Positions 6,280 to 39,135 of a stretch of 40,007 nucleotides of DNA are shown here, piece after piece. Origin of the DNA: Oscillospiraceae bacterium (GTDB taxonomy: Bacteria > Bacillota > Clostridia > Oscillospirales > CAG-272); assembly GCA_015065215.1 (NCBI GenBank), contig SVQT01000015.1:1-40007 (forward strand). The letters run 5' to 3'. The notes below the pieces were generated by a model, which did no database searches, was not told the DNA's origin, and was given only the letters and a program-made list of their open reading frames with translations. Position numbers and translations under genes: made by a program. Numbering within the stretch: the first letter of the stretch is position 1; the number at the start of each line of letters is the position of its first letter.

Positions 6280-6299
6280 TTTTCTTTTTCTCCTAAAAC

Positions 6300-6327
6300 A
6301 AAAAAGTGTGTGGCCGAAGCCACACAC
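6300..6327 (-). terminator. Intrinsic terminator inside the leader of the orphan gene
   Basis: On the minus strand GTGTGTGGC-TTCG-GCCACACAC is followed at once by TTTTTT (6305-6300) and lies about 20 bases before the start codon, just upstream of the Shine-Dalgarno site. A perfect 9-bp stem with a stable TTCG loop and U-tract in this place would stop transcription before the gene unless an alternative fold forms. Confidence 0.8.
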
Positions 6328-6353
6328 CGAAAAATGCATGGCTCCGATTTGCT

Positions 6354-6460
6354 ACCACACAAACTTCCTATACCCGAAAAAAGTATACGAAAATAGAGCA
6401 TACATTTTTACCAAAAGTAAAAAACGTATACCTTTTCGGTTTTTATGAAGTTTGTGTGGT
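6354..6460 (-). promoter_or_regulatory. Long nested inverted repeat at the 5' end of the orphan gene leader (candidate attenuator/riboswitch)
   Basis: The outer arms ACCACACAAACTTC (6460-6447, minus strand) and GAAGTTTGTGTGGT (6367-6354) are perfectly complementary over 14 bp. Inside, CCGAAAAGGTATACG pairs with CGTATACTTTTTTCGG (one bulge, one G-U), and a small TTTTTAC / GTAAAAA hairpin lies within. The outer arms share a 7-base CCACACA / TGTGTGG core with the downstream terminator arms, so alternative pairings that break the terminator are possible. The left arm falls on the predicted transcription start. A MITE-like remnant is the alternative explanation. Confidence 0.65.
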
Positions 6461-6466
6461 GATTCT

Positions 6467-6495
6467 ATTTTAGCACAACGGACGGAGTTTGTAAA
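6467..6495 (-). promoter_or_regulatory. Sigma-A type promoter of the orphan gene
   Basis: TTTACA (6490-6495) and TAAAAT (6467-6472) on the minus strand with a 17 bp spacer. The predicted start at about 6460 gives a 181-base leader. Bases 6496-6604, between this promoter and the next terminator, show nothing recognisable. Confidence 0.72.
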
Positions 6496-6604: not shown

Positions 6605-6647
6605 ATAAAAGCTCCCCGCCGCAAGGATTTCTCCTTGCGGCGGGGAG
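6605..6647 (-). terminator. Intrinsic terminator after the metallophosphoesterase gene
   Basis: A 16-bp stem, CTCCCCGCCGCAAGGA / TCCTTGCGGCGGGGAG, with a 4-base loop. On the minus strand it is followed by CTTTTATTTG. It lies 9 bases after the stop codon of the upstream gene. Confidence 0.88.
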
Positions 6648-23416: not shown

Positions 23417-23493
23417 AAAATGCACAAGAACACGCCTTTGTTTTTGCCAAATCCCACAAAACGGGGTAAAAAAAGCGGTTTTTTGTGCATTTT
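23417..23493. repeat. 11-bp inverted repeat just upstream of the giant-gene promoter
   Basis: AAAATGCACAA (23417-23427) and TTGTGCATTTT (23483-23493) are perfect complements 55 bp apart. The right arm ends 16 bp before the -35 box, so it may be a two-site operator or a terminator remnant. The rest of 22991-23078 and 23348-23416 shows nothing recognisable. Confidence 0.5.
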
Positions 23494-23509
23494 TATTTTG
23501 CGGAAAGTG

Positions 23510-23538
23510 TTGACAATTCCCTGCGCGTATTGTATAAT
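23510..23538 (+). promoter_or_regulatory. Perfect-consensus sigma-A promoter of the giant gene
   Basis: TTGACA (23510-23515), 17 bp spacer, TATAAT (23533-23538). It is the only promoter in the window matching the consensus at every position, suggesting strong expression unless repressed. Predicted start about 23545, giving a leader of about 150 bases. Confidence 0.88.
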
Positions 23539-23547
23539 AATCCCAAG

Positions 23548-23642
23548 AGTACGTGCGTGTACTTTGTCTTTGCTATGCTTTTTGTAGCAATTTCACGGCG
23601 CACGCACACTTCCTTCTGCCCCTCGCGCATGCGTGAGCGGCA
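23548..23642 (+). promoter_or_regulatory. Structured 5' leader of the giant gene
   Basis: A hairpin AGTAC-GTGCGT-GTACT (23548-23563) lies at the predicted RNA 5' end. Its GTGCGTG segment can instead pair with CACGCAC at 23601-23607. A 26-base imperfect palindrome (TGCC.CTC.CGCA / TGCG.GAG.GGCA, 23617-23642) lies about 40 bases before the AGGAGG (23684-23689). There is no U-tract, so effects on RNA stability or translation are likelier than attenuation. Confidence 0.45.
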
Positions 23643-23694
23643 GGACATCATTTTTCAAGCGGATCCGATTGGTCGGGTCCAAAAGGAGGAAAAA

Positions 23695-26600
23695 ATGAAA
23701 GTTACACTCAGACGCACGCTTCTCGTGGCTCTGCTCGTGCTGATGGTCGTAAGCCTTACGGTTTTCGGCATCAGTGCGTCGCTGACCTCCGCTGACGACA
23801 GCAATGCCGTTGCAAAGGTCACCGAGAACGGAAGCGAGGCCACCTACTACACCACGCTACAGGAGGCGGTTGATGCCGTGTCAAGCACAGGCACCGTTTC
23901 TCTTGTGCGAGATGTAGAACTGCCCGAAACGGTTATTATCGCAACCGACAAGGTCGTTACTGTAGATCTTAACGGCTGCAATATTACCGTGGTTCTGGAC
24001 AGCACCAGAACCGATGGTGGTCACATCTATGCGTTCAACAATCTGGGCACTCTCACCCTGAAGGACAGTGAAGGCACCGGCTCCGTAACGGCGCGCGGCA
24101 TTTACAACGGTTACGTTGCAAATGGCGATCCTGTTGCAACCGCACAGATCACTGTTGAAAGCGGTACATACTATGCCCAGGATTCTACCGGCGGCTCCGC
24201 AATCTTCAATTACGGCGTTGCAACCATTAACGGCGGTGAATTCAATGCATTGAACTATGCTTTGAACAACCGGAACACTATGACCGTAAACAACGCAACC
24301 ACCAGTGAAAGTGGCGGCGGCGTATATCACGAAGGTGCAGAGCTTCTCATCAACAATGCCACCTTCCTCAATCTCAACGGCAACGGCGGTCAACACGGCA
24401 TTTATGCCGCTTCCGGTACTGTGACAATTGAAAACATCCATCTTGTCACTAACAGGTCTGCCATTTACTTGGCTGGTGCAACCGTGAACGTCAATGGCGG
24501 TGTGATCAACAACTCCGACTCTACCGTGTCCGAAATTGCACCGTATGTTTTTGAGGGCGTCAGCGGAACGCTGAACATCACCGGCGGTACCATTATTGGT
24601 GACACATGCCGCACGCTAGACACATTGACGCTGAATGTTTCCGGCGGCACCATTGATGCCCCCTCCTTCGCCAAGCAAGGCACCGGCGCTGTCACTGTCA
24701 CCGGCGGCACTTTTGCTACGGAAGATTTTGCCTCTTATATTGCTGACGACTCTCTGCTTGTCAACAACCGCGACGGCACCTACACCACCGTTGCGTTTGA
24801 CGACGTGATGGTTCTGCCCGAGGGGCTGACCCAGGCAAACTATGCAGAAGCATTCGGCGAAAATACCGTAACCGACGGTAACGGCAATTACTGGGCTACC
24901 ATGCAGGCAGCTTTGAAAGACATTCACGATGCCGCCAACGGCATGACAGTCGATACCCTGTACTGCAAGCCCGGCGCAAATGTGGGTGAACTTACACACG
25001 GCCACGTGTGCGGCTCGCTGACTGTTTACGGCAATGATGCCTACGTTTCCGGTGGCGAGCATGATTTTGCTATCGGTACACCTCAAGCTAACGGCACTAC
25101 TTGCACCAACGGTATCGCTGCCGACATGACCTTGAAGGTTATTATGCTGGATGGCGCTGCCGCTTGGGGAACCCCCAACTTTGATCATACTGTGAGTGTT
25201 GTGTTCGAGAGCTGCGATAACATGCACAAGATTTTTCTCAACAACACAGTTGGCACCACCAACATTTCGCTCACTGGCTGCTCCTTTGATATGAGCAGCA
25301 ATGCGCAGCTGCCCGCTCAAGGTTGCGGCGTTTATTCCAACGCCAGCGGCACCATTACCGTAAAGGATTGCTCCTTTGTTGGCTTGTCGCAGCCCATCTG
25401 TCTCAACCACAAAGCAACCGGCACGCAAAGCGTGATTGTAGAAAACGTTACCTTTGAGGCCTGCGGCTCTGATAGTAATGCCGCCGATCACGCTCCCATT
25501 CGTGTGCTTTCCTCTGTTGCGGGCGGCGAATCCAAGCTGACCGTAACCAACGCTACCTTTATTAATACTAAAGCAAACGACGCCAATGCCAGTGCCGATA
25601 TCCTCCTCGACAATGGCGCAGGTGAAACCGTTACCGCAATTTCGGAAACCAATGCCAAAGTGGTTATCGTTACGCTTGACGACGAAAGCAACAAGGTACT
25701 GACCCCCACCCCTGTCACCGAGGATGAGCCTTTCATTGACAATGCGGTTGCCGAGGCAGACGGCATCTACTTCAGAACCTTGGCTGACGCCGTAGCGTAC
25801 GCTACCAATACGACCATCACGCTGCTCTCCGACATCACCGATCCCAACCTGTTGGTTGAGGGTGGGGCGGTTAGCCCGATGCCCGATCTTGAATCTAGCA
25901 AAGGCTACATTTTGGTTACAGCAGACAAAACCATTGTTTTGGATTTGAACGGTCATACAATTTCTACCGCAGTCTCCGGTACTATCATTGTTAACCGAGG
26001 CACGCTGACCATCAACGACAGTAGCGATGCCGAAACTGGTCTTATTGAAACTACGGCCGCTATCTACCTCATAGAAAACCGCGGCGGTAATCTGACCATC
26101 AACGGCGGTACGCTCCGTCAAGCAAACAACAGCGCCTGTATAGCAATTAATCACTGGGCAAATACCACCGGCGACGCCTACCTGACCATCAACGGCGGTA
26201 CGATAACAAGCACTAATTGGGGCGTTTATATTTACGCTGAGTCTGCTAAGGGTGATGTCAACGATAGCGGAACGGTTTATTTCACCATGACAGGCGGATC
26301 TGTTATTGCCTATAACGCTACTGGCGATCTTAAAACATACGGTGTTTACTTGTTTAGTGCGCACCCAACTTACGAAGACAACGGTGCCAACATTGAGATT
26401 TCCGGCAATTCGGTTATTGAAGGCGGTACATACGCATATTATTCTCATGAATCTACGGACTTTATCGATAATCCTAACTTTAACACCACCATTTCCGGCG
26501 GTACATTTAACGGTACGGTTCGTGCCAAGAACGGTGACATCACCATTACGGGCGGTACGTTTAACGGTGCGGTTCAGATCCGCACATTAAAGAGCGATGG

Positions 26601-29600
26601 AAGCGGGATGACCTCGCTCGAACCTTCCGACGCCATCAGCGGCGGTACGTTCAACGCAGGCTTGAGACCCATCTATCTTGCTTCTACTGCTGACGCGCTT
26701 CTCGTTGTCTGCGTGACCGCGGCAGATGGCAGCGCTTCCGTTTACACCTTTGAAACCATGGAAGCTGCCCTTACCGCACTGGCGAGCGTAGATCCCTCCG
26801 CTACCGTCAATGTTTCCTTCTGCAAGGATCTTGACGTAACCGATAGCATCGTTCTCGACCGTGACATGATCATTGACGGCAACGGCTACGTTATTTCCTC
26901 CGCTACCGCAGCCGCAACTATCACTGTCAACGCTGATGTTGTTCTTTCCAATATTATTATTACCAACACCGCCGAGAACGGCGTGGCAATTGCCCTTGGC
27001 ACCGATGCTACTCTGCATGCAGAGCCCACCACCGTGCTGACTGCCTCCGCTCCCTTCTCCGGCTACACCGTCGGTCAGGCAATCACCACCACCGACGAGG
27101 CGTTTGCCGCTGCACTGAATGCGGCAGGCTACGCCCTGACGGCAGCTACCGTTGACGAGGTTACCACCTACACGGTTGTGACCAACGCCCCCAAGGCGGC
27201 GCTCAACGGCTGGCATTACGACACCTTTGCCAACGCATTGGCTGACGCCGAGGATGGCGACACCGTCTCTCTGCTCAGGAACCTTATCGTTGGCGGAACG
27301 ATCGTGATTTCCAAGGACATCACCATCGACGGCAACGGCTATTCCATCACCTCGGATGCATACGGCGCTATGTTCACACTGAACGCAAGCCTTGCGCTGA
27401 ATAACGTTTCCATTAATAATAGGAGGGCTGACGTTCCCGCATTTGCACTGGCGAACGACGCCGGCCTGACCATTGAGGGCAACTGCTCGCTGTCCTCCTC
27501 TCCCATCCTTTCCGGCTACGATGAAGTAGGCCACACCCATGAGGTCTCTGTAGGCAACGCGGCTCTTGCCCAGCTTTTGGAGACCGAGGGCTACTTTATG
27601 GTTCCAAACGGTGCTTACTACACCATTTCTGAGCATGCCGCCGCCAAGATCGGCAATACCCTTTATGAAACCCTTGCCGATGCGCTTTATGCGGCAGTAA
27701 ACGGCGATACTATTATTATTCTGAAGAATATTGAGCTTGCTGACACCGTGGCGATCGACAAGAAGATCACCATTTACGGTCACTTTACCCTGCTCACCTC
27801 CACCAACGATACCGCTGTATTCAGCCTTGGTGAGAATGCCTCTCTCACCATCAACTGCGCGATCGAAAAGGCCGACGGTGCCAAGGTGCTTGCCGCTTGG
27901 GCAGGCCAGACCGTTAAGACCGACAACGTCGATGTTCGCGATATGCTGAACGCAGAGGGCTACGCCATGGTCGAGGAGACCACCGGCGTTTGGACCGTTC
28001 AGACCGCAAAGGCAAAGATCGGCGATCTGAACTACGCTTCCCTGGCCGCGGCTCTTGCCGCCGTGCAGGACAACGAAACCATCGTTCTGCTGGCCGATGC
28101 CGAGCTGACCGCCCCCGTGATCATTGACAACACCGTCACCATTGACTGCGGCGAGTACACCGTCACCTCCTCCGCCTCCACCACCTTTGTGGTCAGCGGC
28201 ACTCTGACGGTAAACGGCGCTATGGTCAATACTTACGCGACCGGCTCTATGTTCACGCTGAGCAACGGCGCTACCGTGGCCATCAACGGCACTGTGACCG
28301 CAAACAAGGTGCTTGTTGGCTATGACAAGGACCTGCATACTGTTACCACCACTGTTCAGGCAACCGCTGAAAAGCTGAACGGCGAGGGCTACGCTCTGGT
28401 TAAGACCGATTCCACCTGGACCGTCATGACCGATGCTCCCGAGGCTAAGGATGCCAACGGTTGGAACTATGTGACGCTGGAAGACGCACTCGTAACCGGC
28501 GGCACGATCACCCTGCTCCGCGATGTGACCGTTGAGGCTACCATTGAGGTTACAGGCGCACTCACCCTGACCGGTGATTACACGCTGACCTCCACCGCCT
28601 CCACCGCATTCAAGCTGAATGCCGGCGCAACGCTTGCCATCAACTGCAAGCTGACCGCCGCCGACGTGCTGGACGCTACCGGTGCCTGGGCTGTGACCAC
28701 CTCCGTGAAGGCCATTGCCGAGCAGCTGAACGGCGAGAACTACTCTCTCACCGAGAGCGCGGGCGTCTGGACCATTACCAGCAACAAGCCCCAGGTCGCC
28801 ATCAACGGCTGGAACTACGATACCCTGGTGAATGCCATTGCCGCCGCACAGGCCGGTAACACCATTGACCTTCTCACCGACGTTACCGTGAGCGGCAACA
28901 TCGACATCGTGGCCAAGAGCCTTACCATCAACGGTAACGGCAAGCTGGTGACCGCCACCTCTACCGGCACCAACGTATTCCGCATCTACGACTGTGCCGT
29001 GACCTTTGAAAACATCAGAGTCAAGGGCGGCCGCGACGGTATCACGCTGGTTTCCAAGACCGCGAACACCGCAACCAACGTTGTCATTAACAACTCTACC
29101 ATCAACGCCAACCGCTACGGCATCTGCATTTGGGAGGTTCCCGAGGCAGACAGCACGCTGACCATCAGCAACACCACCATCAGCGCCGCTGAGAACACCA
29201 CCGTTACCAATGCGGGCGGCATTACCTCTTCCGACTCTGCCGTGACCGTTACCCTGCAGGACGACGTTTCCATCACAAGCACCCAATACGGCATCTATTC
29301 AATGGGCTCCGAATCTGTGAAGGATGCGTGCAAGTACATCGTATCCGGTAACGCTTCGATCAACGGCAGCATTACCGATGTACATGCCACTTACAACGCA
29401 ACCACCGCGACCTTCAACTTTGACGGCTCCAGGTACGTTGCTTCCCTGCTTGGCGTACAAAGCAACGGTACCACTCGCGACTTCAACGTTTACGAGAGCC
29501 TTGCAGACGCCCTTGCAGCTCCCATTTCGGGTGCCGCAACCAACGTTGTCACCCTGCACCGGAACGTAACCGACTTTGCCGGCACAAGCGTTGCATATCC

Positions 29601-32600
29601 CTGCACGCTGGACGGCAATGGCTACTCCATTACCGTGGCTGACGGCAAGACCGCCTTCACGCTGGGTGCAGGCTGCACTTCCTTCGCGCTGAACAACGTT
29701 TCTGTCAACGGTAACATCCTTGCCGGCTTCAACGGCCAGACCGTGACCACCAATATGGAAACCGTTGCCAACGCGCTGAACACACAGGGCTACGCTCTGC
29801 ACAAAGAAGGCGACATCTGGACTGTTGCGGGTCTTGGCGTGGTATCCCTGAACGGCTGGAATTACGCCACCATTCAGGAGGCCCTCGGCCTGATCAAGGA
29901 CGGCGAGTCCCTGAACGTGCTGATCGACTTCACCACCGATGCTACCATCGCCATTGACAAGCCCATCACCATCTACGGTAACGGCAAAACGATCACCTCT
30001 ACCGCAAGCCCTGCGATCAACGTAACGTCCGTCGCGACCATTCATGATCTCACTGTGGACGCTACTGCGGGCAATGCTGTGCATTTCAGTAACAATCTCA
30101 CCCTGGACAATGTGACCCTTTACGCAACCGGCGTGGGTATCAAGTCTTACAACGGTACGGTTGACACGGTTACCCTGACCATGGAAGACTGCACTGTGGG
30201 TGACGCTACAAAGCCCATTGGCTCTCACGGCATCGAATTCAAGCAGCACGGAACCGTAAACGATGCTACAGCAAACATCTTCACCAAGGATGTTGTTCTG
30301 ACCATGAACAACTCCACCGTTTACTCTGTCGGTCGCTGCATTTATACCGATATGGATGCTAACCGCACCGTGACCATAACCATCACGATGGATACACTGG
30401 ATGAGACCAATCCCACCCTGACCTCTACCGGTAACAACGGTCTCACCTTCCACTGGTCCAACGATGCAAACGTTACCTTGGAAAAGGTTTACATCAAGGC
30501 AGAAAGTGTTGCCTTTGGTGCTTCTCAGCACGTTAACAACGACGCCAACAATCCCAAGATCGTTGTGGCAACTGCCACCAACTGTAAGTTCGAGTCCACC
30601 ACCGACACTGCCGTAGCCATGAACATCAACAAGGGCAACACCAACAACCGCTTTATTGCAGATATTACCCTGACCAACTGCACGATCAGCGGTGTTACCC
30701 ACGGTGTCATTCTGGACGGCAGCACCACCGAGCACGGTGCCTCTAAGCTGACCATCAGCGGTGGCTCTGTCTCCTGCACTGCAACCGGCATCCACCTGCG
30801 CGGCGACGTGACTGCCAGCGTTTCCGGCGCCTCCGTCACCTCTACCAACGGCTGGGCGATCTACACCGAGCAGACCGGCGATACCGCCAACACCGTTCCT
30901 TACATTGATCTGACTGTAACCAACAGCACCCTGTCGGGTCTTGGCGGCATCCGCTTCTCCGCCGTTGCAGACGCAACCCGCGGCAACTCTAAGCTGACCG
31001 TGAACGGCGGTACCATCACCGCTACCGGTGCGCACAACGCCGCATATACAGGAAGCGGCGACACGACCAACTACGACGACAAGCCCACCTATGCAGGTAT
31101 TCTGGTAACCGGTGCCGCAGACGTTGCTGTCAGCAACGCCACCATCTCGGCTCCCTCTACCATCGGTATCCACTTCTGGCAATACTGTGCCAGCGCCAAC
31201 CTGACGCTGACCAACTCTCATGTGGGTACGGCTAATGACCTCATCGGACGCCTTGGTATCTACGTATACCAGAGCAACGCCGACGCTGTCAACATCACGC
31301 TGATCAACTCTACCGTTGCTTCCAAGAACATCGCCATCAAGGTAAACGGCAAGGCTGCACAGGTCGCCAACGTCACCGTGACCAACGATGCCCTGGATAC
31401 AGCCAATTATACCCTGTACAGCAAGGACGTTAACGCTATTTCCGCTAACTGGGCTTGCGATCTGCACGTAGAGCTGACCAACGCTTATATCAGCGCAAAG
31501 CAGAACGCCATCAACCTTACCCAGCACAGCACCAATCTTGATGCGAAGAATCCCAAGATCCTCAGCGGTACCATCACAAACTGCCGGATCGTTTCGGATG
31601 CCAATGTAATCAACGCTTACACCGGTGCCAGCGATGATGCAACCAAACAGCCTATGTTCGGCTTGCAGCTGACCGTAACCGACTCCACCCTGGAGGCGGG
31701 GGCCAGCAGCACCGCCGTGCTTCTTTCGGCATACGAGGGTCTTGAGGGCAACTACCTGAACCTGAACGGCAACACCCGCCTTGAGGGTATTTTCGGCTTG
31801 TATCTGCGCGGTGTAGGCGGCTACATCACCGTCACCGCCACCAAGTCCACTGCCGGGTCCCTGACCATTGTGGGCACCACCAACGCCGTTTACATTGATT
31901 CTACCATTGGTGTGACCTTCACTGCCGACGGCGGCAGCATCACCTCTACCAGTGGCGCGGCCATCTACCGCAAGAAAGACAGCGGCAACTCCACCACCGT
32001 GGTCAGTCTGACGGGCGTGGAACTCTCTTCTGAACAGAATTGGGCCATCGACCTGATGCAGGATGCTTACGCCATCAACTCCCACAAGGTTGACGTCACC
32101 CTGACGAATTGCACCGTTACCGGCGCGTACGGCGTAAACGTGGGCGGCTATGAGCTGGGCACCGCTGCCAACGAGAGCGGCTATGCCCTGCAGATCACGG
32201 GTGGCTCCATCAACACCACCAGCGACGCACTCAGCTTGCGTGGCATCTACGCCATCGTGAAGAACGCTACCCTGACCACCTCCGCAAACGCTGCCAGCAC
32301 CCGTGCTGTTTATATGCAGTCCAATCCGAACAACGCGCCCAAGCTGGTGCTGGATAACACCACGCTGTACTTCTACAAGGGTAGCGATGCTGCTATCTAC
32401 CTTGCCAACAACGGCTACAACACGGTCGTTCTGCAAAACAATTCCAGGATCGTGTCCTCCGCAGACGGTATCCGCGTGGGTTGGGAAACGATGTATAACA
32501 ACACCATCACGCTGGATGACTCTACCATCGAGGCAAACGGCACTGGTATCGTGATCAGCGGTTCCAACTATCAAGTAGCGGGCACCATCGCCATCACCCT

Positions 32601-35600
32601 GACCAACGGCTCTCTGATCGATTCGGGCACTTACGGCATTCGTACCGCCGCCCGCATTTCCGAGAATGGCGAGCTGAACATTTCCCTGACGGATTCCGAT
32701 ATCGAGGCGGGCGGTCACGGTATTTACGTCGATAACGATGTCGAGGGCTCTATGTCCGTTTCTCTGACCGACTCCTCTATCGTGGCAGCAGGTCGCTACG
32801 GCTTCTATGTGAATGGCACGCAATCCCAAACCGTCACGGTTAACCTGAATAACGGTCAGATCATTACCACCGGTGTCACGCCGGAGGCAAACAAGGATGA
32901 CTCCAACCGTTATACCGCCGCTATCTACTGCTCTGACTCGGCATTGACGCTGAATATGCAAGGCATTGACAGCCTGATTTCCGGTACCGGCAAATATGCT
33001 GTCGGCATCTATCTCGTTAACTCTGCGGCTCAATCCAAGCTGAACGTACAGATGACGGGCGGTCGCATCGTCGGTTACGCCTACGGTATCCAGCTGCGCG
33101 GCAATACGAGTGCCTCGGTGACCCACGTGGTCAATATGGACATCGCTGCCCCGAACGCAGACGGCTCCGCCAACCTGGAGGCAACCAACGGTCACGCCTT
33201 CCATGCCCACAACCACCTGAACCTGTCCTTCACCGCCAAAAACGCCTATATCAAGGCATCCAGCGCAGCTGTGAATAAGACGGATCCCAGTGTGGCTGCT
33301 AACCGTACAATTATCATGTACTTTGAGGGCACCACCTTTGAAGCTGGTGCCGATTATGCAGTCAATGTTTGGGCGAATAAGGATCAACAAAGTTACGCCT
33401 TGATAACCGCAACCTTTAAGAACTGTTCGTTTACAAGCTGCAACGGTATGTTCCAGGGTGACGGCAGAGTTGAAAAGGATGCGGACAACAAGATCGTTCA
33501 GACTTCCACCCTGACTGTTGAAAACTGCAAGGGTGCAAACGGCGAGGCAATCAGCTTTAAGAAGGCTATCATTCTGGTGCGCGAGCACTTTGCCGTTACC
33601 ATTAAGAATTCCAAGCTGACCTCTAACACCTCGAATGTTGTCCTGTTCACCCAAAACGCGGGCGATATTAATTCTGATTTTGAGTACTCGCTGTATGCAG
33701 AAAACAGCACCTTGACCGGTCATAACACCATCTATGCCGACACCGGTGACTACAGCGCTCTCACCAGTATTGAGCTGAAGGACACCTATCTGGTCAACAA
33801 CAAGGCAGACGGTGCCGCCATCCATACCCACGTACGCAACAGCAACGGCGCCGATGGCAAGAACAACAACGGCAAGGTCTTAAAGATCACCTACACCATG
33901 ACCAATGCCATTGATCTGCAAAATCCCACCATTACCTCTGATTACCGCGGCTTCTGGTTCCGCAACGGTGCGGATATTCATTTGACCTTGACCAATGTGT
34001 ATGTGGATGCTGCCGAGGCAGCGCTCCTGCGCTCGAACTACGGCACCTGCGATTTCACCGGTACTGTTACCGGCTCTCGCCTTGAATCGGACAGCACATG
34101 GGCTGTGGTTCTCACTCGCGACAACGAGACCAACAATGAGGCTTATGTGAACTTCACTTTCCAGGATACCGACATCGTGCTGACCAACAATGCCAACACC
34201 GCTTACGGTGCCCTGCACATTAACGCCGGTTGGGGTGCTAAGACCTCCTCTGTCACCTTCAAGGGCGGCTCTATCACGGCTCCCTTTGATACCGATACCA
34301 CCGAGGTTACGCCCGGTGCTGCCATCGACATTAAGGGTAACATTATCCTGACCATCGGTTATGATCCGGCTGACAACACGCTGACCGATGCCCAGAAGAC
34401 CGCTCGCACTACCATTACCTCCGGTCTCTCCTGCATCCGCACAGATGACTGCGACAAGGCAGGCATCAACGCCACCATCTATCTCTACAATGCCGATCTG
34501 ACCAACCATAATGCCAGTGACGGCACGACAGTAGATTACAGCTCCGATAAATACAATTACAATTGGGGCTACGGTATCAGCATCTACAACGATAAGGCAC
34601 TTGGTACTGTTAATATCACCTTGGTTGGTACGAATATCTCGTCAGTCAATAACAGCATCAACGTAGTGGGCAACCAAAACAAGCTGACACTGACTGCCAC
34701 CGATTCGAGCCTGCGTTCCACCAAGAACATCGCTATCTTTACCCGTAACAACCAGCCTTCTACCATCAAGTTGGTGGATACCACCATCCACGCCGAGAAG
34801 GCTTGTATCGAGCAGAACTACTACCCGGGTGCTGCCAATAAGCCGATCTCCTCGGAGATCAATATCTCCTTCACCGATGCCAACCTCGCAGGGCGCGAGA
34901 AAGCTGATCTCATCAGCGATACTTACCGCGCTATCAACCTGCGTAGCTGGGGTAGTTATACAGTGAACCTTACCAACGTATGGATTGATGCAAAGACAAG
35001 TGTTCTTTACAAAACAGATCCTACCACCTCTTGCGAGTACGATACCGACGGAAACACCGATAATGGTAATGAGGTCAAATGGGCGATCGTTGCGGGTGAA
35101 TGGACGAACTGCCGTTTGGATGCTGAAACCGATACTGCCATCTACTTGACCGGTGGGGCAACCTGCAGACTCAGCTTTGGCCTGACCCTGGATAGCTGTG
35201 TGATCTCCGGTAAGGGTGGCATGCAGCTCAGCTCTGCCAACAGTGGCACCTCTCAGCTGACCATCAAGAACACGGTTTCGGGCGGCAATAGCAGCATCAC
35301 CGGTACCAATTTCGCGCTTATCGTCAGCGGCTATATCTCGGTTGGAATTGATAGCACCGAGCTGACTGCCGGTACCGAGAATGTATACAACAGCAGCGAG
35401 GGTAATCGCGCCACCGTCCGCGTCTCCGAGGGCGTTTCTGTGGTGACCTTGAACATTTCCAACTCCACCATCCGTCAGTTGGGCAAGGGTCAGATCACCA
35501 CCTGGGACGAGGATGGCGATAAGCCCGACATAAAGCCTGTCACCTCCCTGACCAACACCGCCGCTATGGGTATTTACGTATCGAACGGTGACATTTACCT

Positions 35601-38600
35601 GACCTTGGATAACACCGATGTGTATGCCGAGGGCGAATACGGTGTTGCCATTTACCGCACCGGAGATAACGGTTCCACTGGCTGTGTCACCGATATCAAG
35701 CTGAAAAACAGCTGTGAGCTGAAGGCAGGCTTTACCTGTATCAACTTTACCGAGAACTATAAGAACTATGGTAAGTCCTTTACAGTTACCATTGAGGATT
35801 CTACCCTGACCGCACAAAACGGTTTGGGCATCCGCCTCAACGGCACCAACGCAGGCACGGCTATGACCCTTACTGTCAAGAACTCTACCATCACCACCAA
35901 CGGTGCTGCGCTGACAGACGATACAAGCACCGCAGACGTGAATGAGGGCTACAATCTAGCAGCCATCTACTTGGTTGACGGTAATTACACCCTTAATATT
36001 TCCGGCGATTCCAAGATCAAGACCACCAACGCAAGCTCCTCTCACGCCATCTGGATGACCGCAGGCTCGGTCAATCTTGCTATGACCATGACCGGCGGCG
36101 AGGTCTACGCGGCAAACGGCAATGGCGTCCAATTCTCCAATGGCTTTGAAGGTACCTTCAACCTCTCCGGCGGTAGCATTACCTCCGCTAAGGGTTCGGG
36201 CGTTTGCATCGGCAATTCGGGCGACATCCAATTCACCTTGTCGGGCGGCACCATCACCTCCCAAAAGGCAGAGGGCGTGTACTTCTCCGGTCATCCTTAC
36301 ATCCAGTTCACTATGACCGGCGGCCGCATCGTGGGCGCAACCCGCGGCATCCGCGCTTACCCCTCGATGGATAACGCAAAGACCAACAAGTTCACCATTT
36401 CCCTGTCCGCGCTGGATACCACCACCCCTGCCATTGATGCCACGCTCAGCAATGACGGTCACGCCATTTACTTCCACAACGCCGCCAACATTGAGCTGAG
36501 TTTGACAAACGTGTATCTGCGCGGCGCGCATTACGTGATCTTCAAGACGGATCCCAACGATCCGGGCAAGGGCGATCGCACCTTCACCCTCAACGCGACC
36601 AACTGTAAGATGGAGCTCATTGAAACGAATGACAGCAAGGGCTACTCGATCATCACTATCGCGGACGGTAGTGGCACCAAGTCCTACATGGTCTCCAAGG
36701 TCACGCTGACCGATTGTGAGCTGATCAACAACAGCATCCGTTTGGAGAGCGGTGTCCTGCACTCTCACGCCTTACGTATCGACGCGGCAAAGGGCTCCTT
36801 TGTCAAGATCTACGGCGGCAGTATCGATGTGCCTCACACCGCATTCCGCTTCCGTGAATGGATGGATCTGACCATTGACATCAGCCCCAACACCGGTACG
36901 GGCACCTACATTTCCGTGGGCAACTATCTGGTCGACCCCAACAACAACGATACCTACACAATGCCCGCGGGCGTGACCGAGCTGAATTACACCCAGTCGA
37001 TCACGATCAACGGTGCGGTGCTGGAATCCGGTGCCACAGGCATTCAAGCTCGGGACGCTGCCAACAGAAATGTTGATTTCATCCTGACCATGACCGACAC
37101 CACGCTGACCACGGTCGGCGCGGCGATCGACCTCGTCATTACCGGTGACGCAATCGTGACCATGACCAACTGCACGATCACCACCACCGGCAACAACGTC
37201 AAGGCGATCCGCTATGACGATGAGAACAAGGCGAAGGACATCACCATGACCCTGACCGATGTTATCATCAACAGTACCGGCACCGCGATCAACTTCTGTA
37301 GCAACGGTCACGTTGAGCTGATCTACACCATGACCACGCCTTACGGTGCTACACCCACCGTTACGACCACTCAGAAGGGTGACAACAACGGTCACTTCAT
37401 CCACATTCAGGAGGCCACCACCGCGAATATCGTTCTCACAAACGTTTACGCCGATGCAGCCTACCACGGTATCTACCGCTCGAACGCGGACGCGAATCTG
37501 GATAGCTTCTTCCGTCTGGTGATGAACGGTTGCCGCATCGATGCCGCAAGCGACCTGTTCAATGTGGCTACCGACAACGACGACCCCAGCCAGCAGTACA
37601 TTGACATCACCCTGAACAACACCGTTCTGAACGGCGAGGGCTCCGATGCCATCAAGCTGGGCGGCAGAGCCGACGCCAACTCGGTATTCACCATGAACGG
37701 CGGCGAGATCAACACGACCGAAACAGCATTCTACCTTGGCAGACAGATTACCATCCATCTCAACGGTGTGACCGGTATCGTTGGCAAATACGTGGTCAAT
37801 CTCTTTGATAACACGACCGACGTGGCGCAAGCCAAGTTCGTGATCAACATGACCAACTGTGACTTCACCTCCAAGTACGGTATCGCGACCGACGAGGCTG
37901 TTCTGTCTACCATTACCCTGCGCGATACCAACCTGCGCTGCACGCATGTGGTCTTCTCGATGAAGGGTGTGACAGGCTCTGTTCTAAACATCATCGGCGG
38001 TATCTTCACCAATGCCCAGAGCGAGTCTGTGCTGGAGTTGTACGGCTACTACGAGGCTAACATCTACGCCGGTTACTTCCGCAGTGAGAACACTATCGTG
38101 CTCCGCGGCCGTGACTACGCGAAGTTGAATGTTTACGGCGGCTACTTCGAGCTGGCTCCTGCTGAGGGAATTGAGCTGAACAAGTGGAAGGGTGTTGTCC
38201 GCATCGGTACCGACGCGGCCGGCGCCGGCACCCTGACCAACATCTACGGCGGCACCTTTGTGGCTCCTGACGACGCGCCTGTCTACATCTTCTGCCTGAA
38301 CAAGGGACGTAACATCAATCTGTACGCCTTTAACGCAAAGGGTGGCATGGCAGTTTACGCGAACCAGAACGCGGCCAATGTGGTTTTGGATTACCCGACT
38401 GCCGAGAAGTTCTATTCCACCAACACCCCTGTTTTGACCAGCGGTGCTCAGGTGCGCCTGGTTCTGGGTGAGAACAACGAGGGCGGCATCCGCTTCGTAT
38501 CCACCCTGCCCGCCTCTATCTTCGCATACCTCCAGTACATTGCTGACAACGCAAGCGACATCACCTTCGGCACGCTGATCGCTCCTCTGGATTATGTCCA

Positions 38601-39135
38601 GCAGGTACCTGCCTTCACCGCCGATCTGCTGGCGAGTGCCGGTCTTGACTACCTGGAGATCGAAGCTAAGAACGGTTTGATCTACAACGCTGACGGCAGC
38701 GTAACCATCCGCGCCGCCATCACCGGTATCAAGGAAAAGAACTACGACCGTGCCTTTGCGGCAATCGCGTTCGCCAAGTATACGGTGAACGGCGAGGTCG
38801 TTTACCTCTACTCCTACTTTGATGAACAGGCAAACGCCCGCAGCATCAAGCAGTTGGCTGAACGCGCACTGGCTGATACCGCAAAGATCCAGACTTCCAT
38901 CTACCGCTTCCCTGTTGGCGACGGCACCTACAGCCGCTACACCGACGAGCAGCGCGCAGCAATGTCCCTCTATGTCAACTGCCAGTATGCTGAGGAGATC
39001 CTCATTGCTCCTGGAGCAACCACCCCGGGCTTGAAGAAGGTCTGGTGTGACAGCTGCGGCACCTACTACGAGGAGCTGATTCCTCCTACCGGCAGAGTAG
39101 AGGCCATTATCCCCGACAATGATCACGCTGCTTGA
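23695..39135 (+). CDS. Giant secreted repeat protein (about 5146 residues) with beta-helix-like architecture
   Basis: The ATG at 23695 follows AGGAGG by 5 bases and opens a signal peptide (MKVTLRRTLLVALLVLMVVS, cleavage likely after GISA), so the frame's earlier in-frame ATG at 23485 is rejected. The layout has four parts: Ser/Thr/Gly/Asn-rich repeats to about residue 1015; modules of the type NGWNYDTL...DGDT...IDGNGY to about 2130; about 2700 residues of short beta-strand repeats (LTNCTI, VNGGTI, LTNVYIDA), typical of right-handed parallel beta-helices; and a C-terminal domain from about 4916 (GGIRFVSTLP, FGTLIAPLDYV, ITGIKEKNYDRAFAA, ARSIKQLAERAL) seen in many secreted gut Clostridia proteins. 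No LPxTG, membrane helix or S-layer domain follows; the last residues hold WCDSC and IPPTG without an anchor. The frame is uninterrupted. Adhesin, matrix protein or polysaccharide-binding roles are all possible; no catalytic motif is evident. Confidence 0.95.
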   Translation: MKVTLRRTLLVALLVLMVVSLTVFGISASLTSADDSNAVAKVTENGSEATYYTTLQEAVDAVSSTGTVSLVRDVELPETVIIATDKVVTVDLNGCNITVVLDSTRTDGGHIYAFNNLGTLTLKDSEGTGSVTARGIYNGYVANGDPVATAQITVESGTYYAQDSTGGSAIFNYGVATINGGEFNALNYALNNRNTMTVNNATTSESGGGVYHEGAELLINNATFLNLNGNGGQHGIYAASGTVTIENIHLVTNRSAIYLAGATVNVNGGVINNSDSTVSEIAPYVFEGVSGTLNITGGTIIGDTCRTLDTLTLNVSGGTIDAPSFAKQGTGAVTVTGGTFATEDFASYIADDSLLVNNRDGTYTTVAFDDVMVLPEGLTQANYAEAFGENTVTDGNGNYWATMQAALKDIHDAANGMTVDTLYCKPGANVGELTHGHVCGSLTVYGNDAYVSGGEHDFAIGTPQANGTTCTNGIAADMTLKVIMLDGAAAWGTPNFDHTVSVVFESCDNMHKIFLNNTVGTTNISLTGCSFDMSSNAQLPAQGCGVYSNASGTITVKDCSFVGLSQPICLNHKATGTQSVIVENVTFEACGSDSNAADHAPIRVLSSVAGGESKLTVTNATFINTKANDANASADILLDNGAGETVTAISETNAKVVIVTLDDESNKVLTPTPVTEDEPFIDNAVAEADGIYFRTLADAVAYATNTTITLLSDITDPNLLVEGGAVSPMPDLESSKGYILVTADKTIVLDLNGHTISTAVSGTIIVNRGTLTINDSSDAETGLIETTAAIYLIENRGGNLTINGGTLRQANNSACIAINHWANTTGDAYLTINGGTITSTNWGVYIYAESAKGDVNDSGTVYFTMTGGSVIAYNATGDLKTYGVYLFSAHPTYEDNGANIEISGNSVIEGGTYAYYSHESTDFIDNPNFNTTISGGTFNGTVRAKNGDITITGGTFNGAVQIRTLKSDGSGMTSLEPSDAISGGTFNAGLRPIYLASTADALLVVCVTAADGSASVYTFETMEAALTALASVDPSATVNVSFCKDLDVTDSIVLDRDMIIDGNGYVISSATAAATITVNADVVLSNIIITNTAENGVAIALGTDATLHAEPTTVLTASAPFSGYTVGQAITTTDEAFAAALNAAGYALTAATVDEVTTYTVVTNAPKAALNGWHYDTFANALADAEDGDTVSLLRNLIVGGTIVISKDITIDGNGYSITSDAYGAMFTLNASLALNNVSINNRRADVPAFALANDAGLTIEGNCSLSSSPILSGYDEVGHTHEVSVGNAALAQLLETEGYFMVPNGAYYTISEHAAAKIGNTLYETLADALYAAVNGDTIIILKNIELADTVAIDKKITIYGHFTLLTSTNDTAVFSLGENASLTINCAIEKADGAKVLAAWAGQTVKTDNVDVRDMLNAEGYAMVEETTGVWTVQTAKAKIGDLNYASLAAALAAVQDNETIVLLADAELTAPVIIDNTVTIDCGEYTVTSSASTTFVVSGTLTVNGAMVNTYATGSMFTLSNGATVAINGTVTANKVLVGYDKDLHTVTTTVQATAEKLNGEGYALVKTDSTWTVMTDAPEAKDANGWNYVTLEDALVTGGTITLLRDVTVEATIEVTGALTLTGDYTLTSTASTAFKLNAGATLAINCKLTAADVLDATGAWAVTTSVKAIAEQLNGENYSLTESAGVWTITSNKPQVAINGWNYDTLVNAIAAAQAGNTIDLLTDVTVSGNIDIVAKSLTINGNGKLVTATSTGTNVFRIYDCAVTFENIRVKGGRDGITLVSKTANTATNVVINNSTINANRYGICIWEVPEADSTLTISNTTISAAENTTVTNAGGITSSDSAVTVTLQDDVSITSTQYGIYSMGSESVKDACKYIVSGNASINGSITDVHATYNATTATFNFDGSRYVASLLGVQSNGTTRDFNVYESLADALAAPISGAATNVVTLHRNVTDFAGTSVAYPCTLDGNGYSITVADGKTAFTLGAGCTSFALNNVSVNGNILAGFNGQTVTTNMETVANALNTQGYALHKEGDIWTVAGLGVVSLNGWNYATIQEALGLIKDGESLNVLIDFTTDATIAIDKPITIYGNGKTITSTASPAINVTSVATIHDLTVDATAGNAVHFSNNLTLDNVTLYATGVGIKSYNGTVDTVTLTMEDCTVGDATKPIGSHGIEFKQHGTVNDATANIFTKDVVLTMNNSTVYSVGRCIYTDMDANRTVTITITMDTLDETNPTLTSTGNNGLTFHWSNDANVTLEKVYIKAESVAFGASQHVNNDANNPKIVVATATNCKFESTTDTAVAMNINKGNTNNRFIADITLTNCTISGVTHGVILDGSTTEHGASKLTISGGSVSCTATGIHLRGDVTASVSGASVTSTNGWAIYTEQTGDTANTVPYIDLTVTNSTLSGLGGIRFSAVADATRGNSKLTVNGGTITATGAHNAAYTGSGDTTNYDDKPTYAGILVTGAADVAVSNATISAPSTIGIHFWQYCASANLTLTNSHVGTANDLIGRLGIYVYQSNADAVNITLINSTVASKNIAIKVNGKAAQVANVTVTNDALDTANYTLYSKDVNAISANWACDLHVELTNAYISAKQNAINLTQHSTNLDAKNPKILSGTITNCRIVSDANVINAYTGASDDATKQPMFGLQLTVTDSTLEAGASSTAVLLSAYEGLEGNYLNLNGNTRLEGIFGLYLRGVGGYITVTATKSTAGSLTIVGTTNAVYIDSTIGVTFTADGGSITSTSGAAIYRKKDSGNSTTVVSLTGVELSSEQNWAIDLMQDAYAINSHKVDVTLTNCTVTGAYGVNVGGYELGTAANESGYALQITGGSINTTSDALSLRGIYAIVKNATLTTSANAASTRAVYMQSNPNNAPKLVLDNTTLYFYKGSDAAIYLANNGYNTVVLQNNSRIVSSADGIRVGWETMYNNTITLDDSTIEANGTGIVISGSNYQVAGTIAITLTNGSLIDSGTYGIRTAARISENGELNISLTDSDIEAGGHGIYVDNDVEGSMSVSLTDSSIVAAGRYGFYVNGTQSQTVTVNLNNGQIITTGVTPEANKDDSNRYTAAIYCSDSALTLNMQGIDSLISGTGKYAVGIYLVNSAAQSKLNVQMTGGRIVGYAYGIQLRGNTSASVTHVVNMDIAAPNADGSANLEATNGHAFHAHNHLNLSFTAKNAYIKASSAAVNKTDPSVAANRTIIMYFEGTTFEAGADYAVNVWANKDQQSYALITATFKNCSFTSCNGMFQGDGRVEKDADNKIVQTSTLTVENCKGANGEAISFKKAIILVREHFAVTIKNSKLTSNTSNVVLFTQNAGDINSDFEYSLYAENSTLTGHNTIYADTGDYSALTSIELKDTYLVNNKADGAAIHTHVRNSNGADGKNNNGKVLKITYTMTNAIDLQNPTITSDYRGFWFRNGADIHLTLTNVYVDAAEAALLRSNYGTCDFTGTVTGSRLESDSTWAVVLTRDNETNNEAYVNFTFQDTDIVLTNNANTAYGALHINAGWGAKTSSVTFKGGSITAPFDTDTTEVTPGAAIDIKGNIILTIGYDPADNTLTDAQKTARTTITSGLSCIRTDDCDKAGINATIYLYNADLTNHNASDGTTVDYSSDKYNYNWGYGISIYNDKALGTVNITLVGTNISSVNNSINVVGNQNKLTLTATDSSLRSTKNIAIFTRNNQPSTIKLVDTTIHAEKACIEQNYYPGAANKPISSEINISFTDANLAGREKADLISDTYRAINLRSWGSYTVNLTNVWIDAKTSVLYKTDPTTSCEYDTDGNTDNGNEVKWAIVAGEWTNCRLDAETDTAIYLTGGATCRLSFGLTLDSCVISGKGGMQLSSANSGTSQLTIKNTVSGGNSSITGTNFALIVSGYISVGIDSTELTAGTENVYNSSEGNRATVRVSEGVSVVTLNISNSTIRQLGKGQITTWDEDGDKPDIKPVTSLTNTAAMGIYVSNGDIYLTLDNTDVYAEGEYGVAIYRTGDNGSTGCVTDIKLKNSCELKAGFTCINFTENYKNYGKSFTVTIEDSTLTAQNGLGIRLNGTNAGTAMTLTVKNSTITTNGAALTDDTSTADVNEGYNLAAIYLVDGNYTLNISGDSKIKTTNASSSHAIWMTAGSVNLAMTMTGGEVYAANGNGVQFSNGFEGTFNLSGGSITSAKGSGVCIGNSGDIQFTLSGGTITSQKAEGVYFSGHPYIQFTMTGGRIVGATRGIRAYPSMDNAKTNKFTISLSALDTTTPAIDATLSNDGHAIYFHNAANIELSLTNVYLRGAHYVIFKTDPNDPGKGDRTFTLNATNCKMELIETNDSKGYSIITIADGSGTKSYMVSKVTLTDCELINNSIRLESGVLHSHALRIDAAKGSFVKIYGGSIDVPHTAFRFREWMDLTIDISPNTGTGTYISVGNYLVDPNNNDTYTMPAGVTELNYTQSITINGAVLESGATGIQARDAANRNVDFILTMTDTTLTTVGAAIDLVITGDAIVTMTNCTITTTGNNVKAIRYDDENKAKDITMTLTDVIINSTGTAINFCSNGHVELIYTMTTPYGATPTVTTTQKGDNNGHFIHIQEATTANIVLTNVYADAAYHGIYRSNADANLDSFFRLVMNGCRIDAASDLFNVATDNDDPSQQYIDITLNNTVLNGEGSDAIKLGGRADANSVFTMNGGEINTTETAFYLGRQITIHLNGVTGIVGKYVVNLFDNTTDVAQAKFVINMTNCDFTSKYGIATDEAVLSTITLRDTNLRCTHVVFSMKGVTGSVLNIIGGIFTNAQSESVLELYGYYEANIYAGYFRSENTIVLRGRDYAKLNVYGGYFELAPAEGIELNKWKGVVRIGTDAAGAGTLTNIYGGTFVAPDDAPVYIFCLNKGRNINLYAFNAKGGMAVYANQNAANVVLDYPTAEKFYSTNTPVLTSGAQVRLVLGENNEGGIRFVSTLPASIFAYLQYIADNASDITFGTLIAPLDYVQQVPAFTADLLASAGLDYLEIEAKNGLIYNADGSVTIRAAITGIKEKNYDRAFAAIAFAKYTVNGEVVYLYSYFDEQANARSIKQLAERALADTAKIQTSIYRFPVGDGTYSRYTDEQRAAMSLYVNCQYAEEILIAPGATTPGLKKVWCDSCGTYYEELIPPTGRVEAIIPDNDHAA
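26740..30100 (+). repeat. N-terminal 'NGWNYDTL / DGDT / IDGNGY' module array of the giant protein
   Basis: Modules of about 120-230 residues start near 26740, 27196, 27646, 28015, 28450, 28798, 29482 and 29848, with divergent relatives near 23830 and 25768. Each begins with a strand like NGWNYDTLADALAAA, then DG(D/N)T(V/I)LLRDV, a TIxIxKxITIDGNGYxITS strand pair, and most end with ATxEALNGEGYALVK-like sequence. DNA identity between copies is moderate, so this is an old, diverged duplication. Confidence 0.8.
30370..38400 (+). repeat. Seven-copy supermodule in the beta-helix region of the giant protein
   Basis: A recurring block has this order: a T-M-D/N-rich strand, then nP(T/A)(L/I)TS, a short ..HWSNDAN- or FRNGAD-like strand, LTN(V/A)YI(D/K)A, an AI-xKTDP-like turn, an ATNC(K/R)-E strand, T-D-AI, and a VTLTNC-ISG strand. 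Blocks begin near 30409, 31405, 33169, 33922, 34903, 36427 and 37354 (residues about 2239, 2571, 3159, 3410, 3737, 4245, 4554). Uneven spacing (0.75-1.76 kb) suggests decayed intermediates or inserted strands. Confidence 0.7.

Follow-up and report, generated by a model that had tools for sequence, protein, structure and literature searches.

The GEMM RNA (RF01051, the c-di-GMP-I riboswitch) is a single RNA class that is present in many copies per genome, ahead of diverse cell-surface genes, and exerts its control through a transcription terminator. In other Clostridia, c-di-GMP controls surface genes. SAM-I and purine riboswitches employ a terminator/antiterminator platform, the preQ1, fluoride (crcB) and ZTP (pfl) riboswitches are pseudoknotted, and U.A-U triple helices are found in ENE and telomerase-type RNAs. 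Attenuation is under the control of a protein in the case of PyrR or antiterminators of the LicT type.

The window analysed here, a 40,007-nucleotide stretch of DNA from an Oscillospiraceae bacterium (GCA_015065215.1, contig SVQT01000015.1), carries a leader at positions 6280-6495 on its minus strand (Table 1). This leader is one copy of a family of RNA leaders, apparently undescribed so far, in uncultured gut bacteria. Judged from its sequences, the family is predicted to be a riboswitch-like transcription attenuator that apparently lies outside every named riboswitch class.

The leader in the window

An earlier note on this DNA had proposed a transcription attenuator in front of an orphan gene, an interpretation that is supported in part. 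The good promoter that it described is present, with a TG ahead of the -10 element, and the -10 ends 5 nt ahead of P1. The perfect inverted repeat of 14 bp was found at 6354-6367 and 6447-6460, spanning 107 bases, as was the TTCG-loop terminator, GTGTGTGGC-TTCG-GCCACACAC at 6327-6306 of the minus strand with six T at 6305-6300. This T run lies 20 bases from the ATG at 6279-6277, matching the distance of about 20 bases that had been given. The predicted folding of the RNA from 6460 to 6280 reaches -64.8 kcal/mol (z = -7.5 against shuffles, whose mean is -35.7), a value that none of 200 shuffled sequences equalled. When the window copy is folded by itself, the best predicted structure pairs the 5' strand of P2 with the end of X instead of its consensus partner.

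Table 1. Features of the leader copy in the window
Feature	Position	Strand	Remarks
Promoter	6467..6495	-	-35 TTTACA, 17 nt, extended -10 TGcTAAAAT
Strand a CACCACACAA, 5' side of closing helix P1	6452..6461	-	At expected transcription start
P2 5' side GGTATACG	6425..6432	-	Family consensus partner is 6383-6389
Strand W TTTTTTAC	6417..6424	-	Local hairpin with A-run of X
Strand X GGTAAAAATGTATGCTC	6396..6412	-	Partner is W, or Y over long range
Strand a' TTGTGTGGTA, 3' side of P1	6353..6362	-	First four bases have alternative partner a''
Strand a'' GCAA	6349..6352	-	Four-pair mini-hairpin with start of a', exclusive with inner end of P1
Strand Y CGGAGCCATGCATTTTT	6330..6346	-	Partner is X, or Z (as antiterminator)
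Strand Z GTGTGTGGC	6319..6327	-	Terminator 5' arm and antiterminator 3' arm
Strand Z' GCCACACAC and six T	6300..6314	-	Intrinsic terminator 3' arm and U-run
Shine-Dalgarno AGGAG of downstream gene	6290..6294	-	Sequence
Downstream gene, 227 aa	5596..6279	-	Small orphan family

The downstream gene itself is indeed an orphan: its product passes no Pfam or NCBIfam cut-off, and a PDB search at E up to 1 returned no chain. The leader, however, is not confined to this gene. In the genus the search accepted one homologue, with 27% identity over 104 aa, and the own genome has a distant paralogue, with 25% over 110 aa. Each of these two is preceded by a copy of the leader; of three comparisons among these relatives, the third was not significant.

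The note had also known of no named riboswitch with such a layout, and in Rfam 15 no family reached its gathering score at the window, at seven loci of the own genome (E up to 1) or at 18 further loci. Below the cut-off, a plant miRNA model scored 25.2 of 200 bits at the window copy and the ylbH leader 22.4 of 50 bits at the L007 copy, each on the strand opposite to the leader. No description of the motif was found in the available text of the literature; an entry without a name may be present in the supplementary tables of PMC8040213 and PMC2864571. The family is therefore not placed in any named riboswitch class.

Between the leader and the end of a neighbouring phosphoesterase gene lies a 16-bp perfect hairpin (CTCCCCGCCGCAAGGA, 6612-6647) with a T-rich tail, most simply the terminator of that gene. 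Further along the window, a stop-free frame of 5216 codons extends over 23485-39135 of the plus strand. After an internal ATG, it opens with an apparent signal peptide and then Gly/Thr/Asn-rich sequence (by eye, first 600 residues), and therefore likely encodes a giant secreted protein. Neither half of this frame had a Pfam match at E 1e-4, nor did the opposite-strand ORF at 29299-33831 (1510 aa), which is probably not a gene.

Distribution of the leader family

When the leader was used as a BLAST query against the own genome, six further loci came up, each with 69-76% identity to the window copy and ahead of a different gene. A model of the 3' part of the element, from the 3' strand of P1 to the terminator (R1, built from 29 copies), located nine places in this 85% complete genome at E <= 3e-10, the next four having E above 0.15. 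Because R1 contains both the terminator and Y, copies without either are beyond its reach. Within the genus, R1 matches 19 of 21 genomes at E <= 0.001, or 18 if the threshold is set at 1e-5. Copies were also located in at least 141 of 394 genomes of the order and in at least 96 of 391 genomes of the class, at least 93 of the latter being neither the own genome nor members of its order. Surveys of more than 40 genomes scored 13 or 18 candidates per genome, and their copy numbers and tallies are lower bounds; on this scale, a phylum-wide sample of 299 genomes gave the own genome as the only match. In a deeper R1 search at E <= 1e-5, twelve copy-rich genomes had between 11 and 23 copies apiece. 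Among the matches listed, the named carriers are uncultured, mostly gut and rumen MAGs, with labels such as Oscillospiraceae, Ruminococcaceae, Clostridia and similar.

Ten pairs of leaders are arranged in tandem on one strand, 189-324 nt apart (L028, L107, L122, L128, L134, L149, L184, L190, L194 and L205). The first copy of the L134 pair is cut by the locus end, and the second of the L028 pair has its own promoter-like sequence. No copy was found among plasmids or, using two sequence patterns, in IMG/VR. A phage collection contained two faecal scaffolds with copies, both marked UNVERIFIED; from their ORFs, read by eye, one resembles bacterial chromosomal DNA, and genes for an integrase and HTH proteins are present on the other. 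At L229 (4147-4268; deposited as phage, unverified), a copy precedes a zinc-ribbon-like protein and a lipoprotein (by eye) and has an integrase nearby, and copies may therefore travel on islands.

Anatomy and covariation

The anatomy of the family is based on 189 distinct elements. In order, the RNA consists of the promoter, strand a, a variable stem, W, X (GGYAAAAAYGCAYGCUC), a variable stem, a' and a short a'', followed by Y (GGAGYUAUGCGUUUUUCGG), Z, Z' with the U-run, the Shine-Dalgarno sequence and the start codon. Seven of the 189 elements were left out for short upstream DNA or the lack of a U5 match, 15 of 182 for the lack of an X anchor, and 5 of 167 for a weak or distant P1, leaving 162 copies; alignment A4 was made from 135 of these, and alignment A5 from 25 of the 27 long copies. 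The alignment of the longer subtype places X in an open apical loop beside a GGG...CCC hairpin, which is followed by a U-run.

The position of the promoter with respect to P1 is fixed. For the counts of promoters and shared 7-mers, 11 of 182 elements with a weak P1 or little DNA upstream were set aside. In 143 of the 171 others the end of the -10 lies exactly 5 nt ahead of P1, and 160 have TG in front of the -10, against 20 in shuffled sequence. All 10 pairs of P1 changed on both sides among 135 copies, with 98.1% of cells paired. Changes on both sides are also seen at all seven pairs of the P2 helices (79.6-89.4% of cells paired), at 3 of 8 pairs of W:X (93.5%) and at 8 of 14 pairs of X:Y (92.0%), and in 156 of 167 copies X:Y binds better with its own partner than with the mean of swapped partners. 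The mini-hairpin between the start of a' and a'' is fully paired in 159 of 182 copies (shuffled mean 143.7, maximum 150).

An independent set started from 72 matches. Sixteen were removed because they came from the same order, had been seen before or had E above 1e-4, which left 56 unused copies from other orders. Here the own partner was the better one in 46 of 56 copies for P1, in 44 of 55 for X:Y and in 45 of 55 for Y:Z, and 49 of 56 copies had the whole mini-hairpin, where shuffling gave 35.3 on average and 41 at most. The A5 of X and the U5 runs of W and Y are highly conserved; they might come together in a U.A-U triple helix or mark a site of pausing. Nearly invariant bases that are unpaired in both folds are the AUA after P1 and the CG after U5 (alignment A4).

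Genes behind the leader

An ATG with a Shine-Dalgarno-like sequence lies 15-30 nt past the U-run in 121 of 189 elements, as compared with 100 of 3780 random positions, and none of the 189 has a gene start on its divergent side. By the start-codon rule, 10 copies lack a downstream ORF; among the 179 distinct downstream ORFs, 162 have a Shine-Dalgarno-like sequence, and the median distance from U-run to start is 22 nt.

These genes are strongly enriched for secreted and surface proteins, a conclusion that follows from the secretion and lipobox counts. A simple N-terminal rule marks 82 of the 179 products as secreted or membrane-anchored. Among named loci, for proteins of at least 100 aa, 30 of 46 leader genes are scored as secreted versus 73 of 434 other ORFs there (odds 9.3, P 1e-11). 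The secretion rule is a rough one, based on the N-terminus, and start codons were assigned by closely similar but not identical rules in leader genes and background. Lipobox-like starts are found in 18 of the same 46 versus 25 of the 434, and in a second locus set, from the twelve copy-rich genomes, 31 of 34 products look secreted. Also encoded behind the leader are many small proteins that are probably cytosolic, and the window gene is among the genes outside the secreted/surface group.

The Pfam scan covered 118 of the 179 ORFs and returned 22 proteins with BspA-type leucine-rich repeats, 5 with WG repeats, 5 with double zinc ribbons, 4 with SLH and 4 with AMP-binding domains. In several genomes the leader precedes a gene for a small protein rich in cysteine (VIDITGVELTPGEPTVCLGNG...FECCCDECDYYLLCFPEFD), namely at L007, L027, L028, L031, L045, L062, L071 and L077, with relatives at L248 and L292; the L071 protein has no Pfam or NCBIfam match.

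Proposed mechanism and alternatives

Taken as a whole, the leader is most likely an attenuator in which Y pairs with either X or Z, in mutually exclusive folds of which one is predicted to stop transcription. We infer the mechanism, direction and signal of this switch: Y would be the decision strand, its pairing with Z would block the terminator and so act as an antiterminator, and its pairing with X would free Z and let the terminator form. As expected of a switch, the antiterminator and terminator hairpins are close in energy, with a mean difference of 1.6 kcal/mol (sd 2.8); in the window copy the best fold, with the antiterminator, is at -62.3 and the best with the terminator at -61.3, before any X:Y energy. 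An intrinsic terminator and an exclusive antiterminator with a common strand are both conserved, as in transcription attenuators, and the conserved 5' leader has a structured domain overlapping the expression platform, as in riboswitches generally.

The leader may, tentatively, be a candidate for a new orphan riboswitch class: one switch for many secreted and surface proteins in a large group of gut Clostridia, with a pseudoknot at its core, possibly a U.A-U triple helix of the three conserved runs, and a signal other than c-di-GMP. RF01051 matched none of the leader copies tested. It is present in 2 of 21 genomes of the genus and GGDEF in 3, as against 19 for the new RNA, and neither was found in the own genome. 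Among the twelve copy-rich genomes, GGDEF is absent in five and present in seven; the genomes being incomplete, single absences of GGDEF are weak. The RF01051 search matched 0 of 14 named control genomes and gave clear matches in two genus genomes, and therefore works. With 18 of the 21 genomes lacking GGDEF and 19 lacking RF01051, c-di-GMP is unlikely as the general ligand. Genomes G003 and G006 have c-di-GMP-I riboswitches together with GGDEF genes; G006, which is only 70% complete, has the most of both, and no copy of the new RNA was seen there.

A trans-acting RNA-binding protein on P1, the mini-hairpin or X could tip the same fold. Small regular hairpins with covarying stems, such as the mini-hairpin, can be protein sites, and one regulator could serve up to 23 copies; however, the mini-hairpin loop varies with strand a and is therefore not a fixed recognition loop, and protein control seems on balance unlikely. 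A kinetic or stochastic switch without a ligand, in which co-transcriptional folding, temperature, NTP levels or pausing of the polymerase at the conserved U5 determines the readthrough fraction, would suit the small energy difference as well as the nearly fixed transcription start and U5. Such a switch is nonetheless improbable, as the nearly invariant bases left unpaired in both folds suggest more than helix balance.

The switch of the earlier note, in which the arms of P1 swap partners with those of the terminator via CCACACA and TGTGTGG, is almost certainly wrong: both 7-mers are present in the window copy, but a' and the terminator have a 7-mer in common in only 8 of 171 copies, and it was rejected on this family comparison. 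A leader peptide is hardly tenable either. Its NUG start (CUG included) would lie inside Y (GGAG-NN-NUG-CGU-UUU-UCG), and the translating ribosome would decide the fold; 135 of 167 copies have NUG at this place, and in the alignment most have GGAG directly before it. Yet the UUU codon is fixed in 167 of 167 copies, the distance between the U-tract and the U-run of the terminator falls into all three classes modulo 3 (113, 29, 25), and the gap from Shine-Dalgarno sequence to start is only 2-3 nt. This reading was rejected because no short ORF is kept in frame with synonymous change; the NUG is accounted for by the pairing of Y with X. The many copies per genome, the tandem pairs (all under 450 nt apart), the copies without an ORF by the rule used and the one near an integrase would fit a mobile promoter-plus-terminator cassette, MITE-like with the P1 arms as terminal repeats, or a free-standing small RNA family. 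Both are highly improbable, given the divergence of the six BLAST copies and the place of P1 at the expected transcription start; the cassette is not favoured, since the six own-genome copies are not near-identical to the window copy and leader position and orientation are tied to gene starts.

Should the attenuator work through Y as proposed, a single RNA element, in up to 23 copies per genome, would help to determine which surface proteins these widespread intestinal bacteria present to their host and neighbours. It would also be a candidate orphan riboswitch; because its consensus is strong, its on and off folds are clearly predicted and natural variants are numerous, ligand screens and mutational tests can be planned directly. 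The leader is, in addition, a marker for secreted-protein genes in uncultured genomes.

Comparison with known systems

As in ENE and telomerase-type RNAs, the conserved A5 run and the two U5 runs of the new leader concern the same strand; compared with those RNAs, its putative triple helix is argued from conservation. The combination of a pseudoknot with an overlapping terminator recalls the preQ1, fluoride/crcB and ZTP/pfl riboswitches, and overlapping terminators are described for crcB and pfl leaders in the available part of PMC2864571. The new leader differs from these in size, consensus and gene set, and has no Rfam match at the cut-off. With SAM-I and purine riboswitches it has in common its place in the 5' UTR, a closing helix P1, and exclusive antiterminator and terminator with a common strand. 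Unlike in these, again with no Rfam match at the cut-off, it is a loop strand, X, that captures the switching strand by pairing with it at long range, and the mini-hairpin competes with P1. Like GEMM, the leader is a multi-copy element, one RNA class before diverse surface genes with predicted terminator control; it differs in having no match to RF01051 and in its distribution within the genus, where GEMM is present in 2 and the new leader in 19 of the 21 genomes.
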